64,000 bases of DNA, taken from positions 1 through 64,000 of the forward strand of contig NC_011295.1 in assembly GCF_000020945.1 (NCBI RefSeq), given 5' to 3'. The notes under the pieces are model-generated. The model did no database searches, was not told the origin of the DNA, and worked only from the letters and a program-made list of their open reading frames with translations. The stretch is from Coprothermobacter proteolyticus DSM 5265. GTDB taxonomy: Bacteria; Coprothermobacterota; Coprothermobacteria; Coprothermobacterales; Coprothermobacteraceae. Position numbers and translations under genes: made by a program. Positions 40,936 through 43,208 of this stretch are shown here, piece by piece (position 1 is the stretch's first letter; each line of letters opens with the position of its first letter).

Positions 40936-41456
40936 ATTAGGAAGCTTTTAAAGTTTTATCGCTGCCTTTATCATCCTGCAATGGTTCCATGCCTTTGGTC
41001 GTTTTGGATCAGCTTTCTAATTACGTTTCTTTACTTTTTGACATTTCTTCGTTGCCCTGGGATAACCTGCCAAGAAAAAAGCTATTGAACGAAACTATGG
41101 CACATTACAATTTTGGAAAACCTGCAATTCGTTCATCGTTTTTATCGTTCCTATAAGGAAGGAAAACAGCTTCTGATATTTGCAGAGTGCAATAAACATC
41201 ATAGTTTAGTTTTTATCGTTCCTATAAGGAGTAATGAAGAAGAACTTTTCAGTAATCTGGGGCAAATTTACAATTAGGAAAGAAAAACTCACAAAGGGGA
41301 AACATGCCATCCTTGCTATTGTTTGGATTTATATAGAAACTCCTCTCTGCTATGAAAGTGGTTATTTTTTCTCTGAACATATAAACTTTCTAAGCAGGAA
41401 AACTTTGTTCGCCATAGAATTAAGAAAGTACGAAATAACGATAGGGGGGACTGAAA
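40936..41456 (+). other. Non-coding stretch around the CRISPR-like remnant
   Basis: About 520 bases between the glycosyltransferase and rmuC. It contains the two-repeat element at 41138-41238. A frame at 41234-41584 starts inside the second repeat and overlaps rmuC, so I do not accept it. The rest resembles no gene I recognise. Confidence 0.4.
41138..41238 (+). CRISPR. Degenerate two-repeat CRISPR-like remnant
   Basis: The first 22 bases (GTTTTTATCG, then TTCCTATAAGGA) occur at 41138-41159 and again, identical, at 41209-41230, a spacing of 71 bases. Taken as 30-mers, copy one ends GGAAAAC and copy two ends differently, as with terminal degenerate repeats. The spacer is about 41 bases. The start and style match 30-base repeats common in thermophilic Clostridia, which usually end GAAAC. 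There are no cas genes or further repeats in the window. Confidence 0.6.
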
Positions 41457-42799: not shown

Positions 42800-43208
42800 A
42801 TGAAAAAGGAGATAATTAAGCATTTAAAGCTGCTGATTTTGCTGAACGCCTTTGATGGCATAGTAACGCACATAGGGGTTTCAGCTGGATATATAGAGGA
42901 GTGGAACTCGAAAACGCCAAGAAAATGGGCGCAATGAACATACGGTTTCAGCTGGATATATAGAGGAGTGGAACCCGCTAATGCGGGGCGTAGTATCCGA
43001 TTTTCCCTTGCTGGTATTGGCGAAGATTGCAATACCAACTTTTATTTTGGCCGTTATAATTGTTTTGATAAACTCTAGCAAGTATTTGCCGGGAAGGATG
43101 ATAAGGAAACTCATAAAAGCAGCCCTTTTGGCATATACGGCCGTTTTGCTAATCCATGTTTTTTGGATATTAAAAGTTATTATCCTCCTGCGTGCGAGGT
43201 GTTTTTGA
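42800..43208 (+). pseudogene. DUF5658-like membrane protein gene split by a 67-bp insertion
   Basis: ATG 42800 begins KEIIKHLKLLILLNAFDG and VSAGYIEEWN, then runs into SKTPRKWAQ and a stop at 42935-42937. A second copy of the VSAGYIEEWN coding segment, in the same codon register, starts at 42945 and continues PLMRGVVSDFPLLVLAK through two further membrane helices to the stop at 43206-43208. Removing 42908-42974 restores one frame of about 113 residues with the EEWNPLMRG motif typical of small DUF5658-type membrane proteins. The insertion shifts the frame by one, so the gene is broken unless translation restarts at ATG 42981. Confidence 0.75.
42877..42974 (+). repeat. 31-bp direct repeat flanking a 36-bp insert inside the DUF5658-like gene
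   Basis: Bases 42877-42907 and 42944-42974 are identical over 31 bases (GGTTTCAGCTGG... ending GAGTGGAAC). Between them lie 36 bases (42908-42943) foreign to the reading frame. The dimensions, 30-31-base repeat plus 36-37-base spacer, are those of one CRISPR repeat-spacer unit, but the repeat itself is ordinary coding sequence of the disrupted gene. It begins GTTT and ends GGAAC, as CRISPR repeats of this size often do. Confidence 0.85.

Follow-up and report, generated by a model that had tools for sequence, protein, structure and literature searches.

A DUF5658 gene of Coprothermobacter proteolyticus DSM 5265 carries the scar of what was very probably an off-target integration by an ancestral type I-B Cas1-Cas2, the cas1 gene being lost later. 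The genome is a single contig of 1,424,912 bases and is 99.5% complete, and the scar lies within its first 64 kb; this 64-kb stretch, which was analysed as a whole, is referred to here as the window. A sequence-only reading had proposed a natural fossil of off-target CRISPR adaptation, in which a neo-array was created and a gene inactivated. This proposal is supported by the lengths of the duplication and the insert, by the likeness of the duplicated segment to the host CRISPR repeat and by remnants of cas1 and cas2 in the host. It is also supported by comparisons with homologues and with the host chromosome, neither of which supplied the inserted bases.

Anatomy of the duplication and the broken gene

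Identical direct repeats of 31 bp occupy positions 42877-42907 and 42944-42974 with a spacing of 67 and 36 bp between them, as had been described from the letters. A G precedes GTTTC in both copies, and therefore a 30-bp duplication, GTTTCAGCTGGATATATAGAGGAGTGGAAC, around a 37-nt insert, TCGAAAACGCCAAGAAAATGGGCGCAATGAACATACG (42908-42944), is an equally valid reading. The first G of GGTTTC can be assigned to the insert (30/37 reading) or to the duplication (31/36). The features in the window are as follows.

42800-42937, plus strand: 5' half of the broken DUF5658 gene, 45 aa, read from the sequence; matches PF18902 profile positions 1-24; TGA inside the insert
42878-42907, plus strand: repeat copy 1 of the proposed neo-array, 30 nt, GTTTCAGCTGGATATATAGAGGAGTGGAAC; identity extends 1 base further left (42877); 17/30 to the host CRISPR repeat
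42908-42944, plus strand: candidate stray spacer, 37 nt, TCGAAAACGCCAAGAAAATGGGCGCAATGAACATACG (36 nt under the 31-bp reading); single-copy in the genome; length of a host spacer
42945-42974, plus strand (42944-42974 as 31 bp): repeat copy 2 of the proposed neo-array, an exact direct repeat of copy 1
42975-43208, plus strand: 3' half of the broken DUF5658 gene, starting PLMRGVV; matches PF18902 positions 16-82 together with repeat copy 2; possible restart ATG at 42981

The frame of the upstream half begins with the ATG at 42800, continues across copy 1 and terminates within the insert at a TGA (42935-42937). The downstream half reads copy 2 in its own frame into PLMRGVV and stays open until the stop at 43206-43208. 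Both copies encode VSAGYIEEWN, each in frame with the gene half to which it belongs, and removal of 67 bp restores a single frame of 113 codons without a stop, so that these two claims of the sequence-only reading were confirmed. Its assignment of a DUF5658-like gene also held, because the flank-joined 113-aa protein covered the whole Pfam model PF18902 (DUF5658) in a profile search (columns 1-82 of 82, 64.8 bits). The separate halves scored 24.3 bits (profile 1-24) and 44.0 bits (16-82), which means that profile columns 16-24 are present twice.

In intact homologues from other genomes, the split point is uninterrupted and follows the pattern E-x-NP-x-(M/L)-R, for example EELNPVMR and EANPFLR compared with EEWNPLMR in the restored protein. 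The possibility that homologues naturally contain the 36-base segment is not borne out, because they are contiguous across the split point, in agreement with the empty-site reading, and the PF18902 domain is complete when the flanks are joined. On the same grounds, the duplicated site is the native sequence from before the insertion, as judged from a single genome of the species. A complete domain on joining and contiguous homologues also suggest that the insertion broke what looks like a working gene. The predicted empty allele without the 67 bp would have a single GTTTCAGC...GGAAC copy leading into CCGCTAATGC; no such allele was found in relatives, at the level of DNA or protein, or in plasmids or viral contigs.

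A scan for exact spaced repeats (16 bp or longer, period 20-150) covered 504 kb, consisting of the window, the CRISPR region and 20 spread stretches rather than the whole chromosome. The scan returned only the CRISPR arrays, a pair of repeats at 41138 and the DUF5658 duplication, and the spaced duplication in DUF5658 exceeds chance.

Host CRISPR repeats and remnants of the adaptation module

The CRISPR arrays of the host lie at 1.26 Mb on its single contig (C1) and share a 30-nt repeat, GTTTCTAGCTTACCTACAAGGGATTGAAAC. The features compared with the scar are listed below.

C1:1263870-1264966, minus strand: CRISPR array with the host repeat (main array)
C1:1273433-1273529, minus strand: CRISPR array with the host repeat
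C1:1276629-1276790, minus strand: CRISPR array with the host repeat (array 3, three repeats)
C1:1264701-1264735 and 1264967-1264995 (L029 9701-9735 and 9967-9995): main-array spacer and its self-protospacer, inside a truncated subtilase-like gene
C1:1276966-1277482 (L030 1966-2482): degraded type I-B adaptation module, a cas2 frame and a cas1 remnant, beside array 3, found by tblastn
Window 41138-41230, intergenic: two 22-bp copies of GTTTTTATCGTTCCTATAAGGA, 71 apart; weak match to Rfam CRISPR-DR2 (26.5 bits, below the gathering score)

The host spacers are 36 (10), 37 (5), 38 (2), 35 and 40 nt long (n=19), and 15 of the 19 are thus 36-37 nt. Repeats of 30 nt and spacers of mostly this length are what the sequence-only reading had proposed to look for in the host. 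The length of the stray duplication, 30 (or 31) bp, agrees with the 30-nt host repeat, and the insert of 37 (or 36) nt and the period of 67 are typical of the host arrays.

The duplicated 30-mer agrees with the host repeat at 17/30 positions, chiefly at the ends (GTTTC...GGAgTGgAAC); the agreement is partial, and unrelated 30-mers scoring 18 occur several times within the window. Among 798,840 genomic 30-mers from 400 kb, the fraction scoring at least 17/30 was 3.1e-4, and this figure becomes about 1e-3 once two registers and two strands are allowed for. When the site was shifted by 1-3 bp on the same strand, 5-11 matches to the host repeat were obtained. The suggestion that the duplicated segment is a repeat mimic is therefore supported against the array repeat (17/30; 3.1e-4 of genomic 30-mers). 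The duplication is the gene's own coding sequence and not a host CRISPR repeat by descent, as indicated by the 17/30 match and the DUF5658 profile.

The sequence-only reading had compared the segment with the repeat at 41138. This was the wrong model, being decayed and of another kind, and the relevant repeat is that of the arrays at 1.26 Mb. When the 41138 repeat is extended to 30 nt, the duplicated 30-mer agrees with it at 16 positions, which is less rare (1.4e-3), and the array repeat was preferred as the model. The 41138-41230 pair is a decayed two-repeat CRISPR (mini-array) with a repeat type other than that of the host, and the 22-bp repeat has no further copies in the genome. The pair is located only 1.7 kb from the stray integration. 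A separate observation concerns the main array, in which one spacer shares 29 identical bases with the chromosome directly before the first repeat, and the edge of the array falls exactly at this self-protospacer. The arrangement looks as if recombination between spacer and target had removed the leader and neighbouring genes.

Pfam searches of the host genome were negative for Cas1 and Cas7. A truncated cas1 remnant missed by the profile was found by tblastn with the proteins of G004, a relative from the same family. The cas2 frame (C1:1276966-1277226) looks intact and is 93% identical to that of the same-genus genome G002. Cas1 is represented by a C-terminal piece in two frames (frameshifted, 1277239-1277482), which is 86% identical to G002 over the last 59 residues. 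This wreckage lies immediately upstream of array 3, and the Cas1 that the host genome now carries is truncated and broken. The type I-B operon of G004 is complete (cas6, cas8b, cas7/csh2, cas5b, cas3, cas4, cas1b and cas2) and adjoins an array whose repeat differs from that of the host at 3 positions. G002 has an operon of the same type I-B kind, and the modules are full or near-full in both genomes. The cas2 frame and the cas1 fragment beside array 3 indicate that the lineage once had a type I-B adaptation module.

The DUF5658 gene (window 42800-43208) sits between rmuC and a nuclease-like lipoprotein gene, and no significant homologue was found in the eight same-phylum relatives searched. 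The gene may have been horizontally acquired, in which case the integration could date from an earlier host whose repeat was similar. That the site matches the repeat of the present host argues, short of proof, for integration in the present lineage. No leader-like sequence was found upstream of the duplication (P 0.68 against the leader of array 3). Such a sequence is present beside some off-target sites and is not required.

Mechanism and rival explanations

In the proposed mechanism, type I-B Cas1-Cas2 loaded with a 36-37-bp prespacer would attack both ends of the repeat-like 30-bp coding segment. Staggered joining followed by gap fill-in would then leave 30 bp duplicated on either side of the new spacer, and the product would be a one-spacer neo-array. 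The 67-bp insertion shifts the frame and introduces a stop codon, so that the gene for the DUF5658 membrane protein is broken. The truncation of cas1 would have come after the integration. Since the two repeat copies have kept full identity and the halves of the gene are otherwise intact, little time, as measured by sequence decay, seems to have passed since the integration.

The insert had been called foreign. It has no second copy in its own genome at up to 3 mismatches, and this part of the claim stands; a templated copy from the chromosome, the adjacent sequence included, was rejected on this basis. The database search proposed for the insert gave nothing significant in phages, plasmids or viral contigs, so that no donor or protospacer can be named for it. 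The main array of the host likewise gave no significant phage match, which makes the negative donor search for the insert weak. We infer that the spacer came from outside the genome. A lone wobble-pattern match in genome contigs (L036, from a planctomycete) lies on the reverse strand of an unrelated gene, the product of which, judged by its translation, looks like uroporphyrinogen decarboxylase, and it was taken as chance.

The scar might instead have arisen by break repair with captured filler, in which staggered overhangs of about 30 nt were filled in, doubling 31 bp, and an unrelated 36-bp fragment was ligated between them with no CRISPR enzyme involved. A duplication with filler is the anatomy expected of such an event, Cas1 is broken in the present genome and there is no leader near the site. 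However, chance would have to account for a duplication as long as the host repeat, an insert as long as a host spacer and a site that ranks among the top 3e-4 for repeat-likeness, and the 504 kb contain no second scar of this type with 16 bp or more. We consider break repair unlikely. A 67-bp tandem duplication by slippage, followed by divergence of the initial 36 bp of the second copy, is very improbable. At the most favourable offset nearby, which was picked post hoc, the insert matches the upstream sequence at 18 positions (P 0.025), but this match is one base off register and the gapped local score is ordinary (P 0.64). Furthermore, identity would have to have fallen to about half over 36 bp and stayed at 100% over the 31 bp next to them. 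The tandem duplication was disfavoured on these grounds, and the earlier judgement that slippage accounts poorly for a single-copy insert is borne out.

An insert with a target duplication also resembles transposition, and the scar could be the footprint of a mobile element or of another integrase with target duplications of 30-31 bp, for example a casposon relic, since casposases of the Cas1 family duplicate their targets. Casposase duplications are 14-15 bp, however (PMC6977970), the insert is just 36-37 bp, and no inverted repeat is reported at its ends; the chance of such an origin is slight. An artefact of sequencing or assembly has to be considered because a single genome sequence of the species was analysed, but the genome is a single contig with 99.5% completeness, and an artefact is unlikely to copy the lengths of CRISPR repeats and spacers. 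We give this explanation hardly any weight.

Comparison with known systems and significance

Most of what is known about off-target spacer integration comes from experiments with overexpression, and natural examples are rare. In the 2018 work of Nivala, Shipman and Church, the off-target sites reportedly resemble the native locus, and putative natural cases are said to be found in Yersinia pestis and Sulfolobus islandicus. Because natural off-target cases have reportedly been described already, the DUF5658 case joins a known phenomenon. It is a new natural instance that lies inside a gene and comes from a different lineage and a different system subtype.

Integration of spacers outside the array upon overexpression of Cas1-Cas2 is attributed to Nivala et al. 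2018 (Nat Microbiol 3:310; doi 10.1038/s41564-017-0097-z) in the papers that cite it (PMC9456107, PMC11788318). The DUF5658 scar is similar in that a spacer lies in the chromosome outside an array. It differs in its host, a thermophilic Coprothermobacter whose repeats are of type I-B, in the lack of a recognised leader-like element, in its target, a coding gene that was broken, and in the later decay of the host cas1. With two repeats, one spacer and no nearby cas genes, the scar also resembles an orphan CRISPR mini-array. Unlike in such an array, the repeat here is the coding sequence of a gene (VSAGYIEEWN; DUF5658 profile) and is not CRISPR by descent. Casposon integration shares a Cas1-family integrase and a target duplication. 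Casposons, however, carry genes and terminal inverted repeats and make target duplications of 14-15 bp (PMC6977970), whereas the DUF5658 scar has a duplication of 30-31 bp and an insert of 36-37 bp.

Our data suggest that the type I-B Cas1-Cas2 of a deep-branching thermophile probably inactivated a gene by off-target integration in nature, and that this was a first step of array birth, kept because the integrase was lost soon after. The scar would provide a concrete type I-B target with testable sequence requirements, and a repeat-length duplication around a spacer-length insert within a gene may serve as a search rule for more cases. As a natural case in which the target can be read from the broken gene, it would mean that integration escapes the leader in the wild, and that it can mutate genes and seed arrays.
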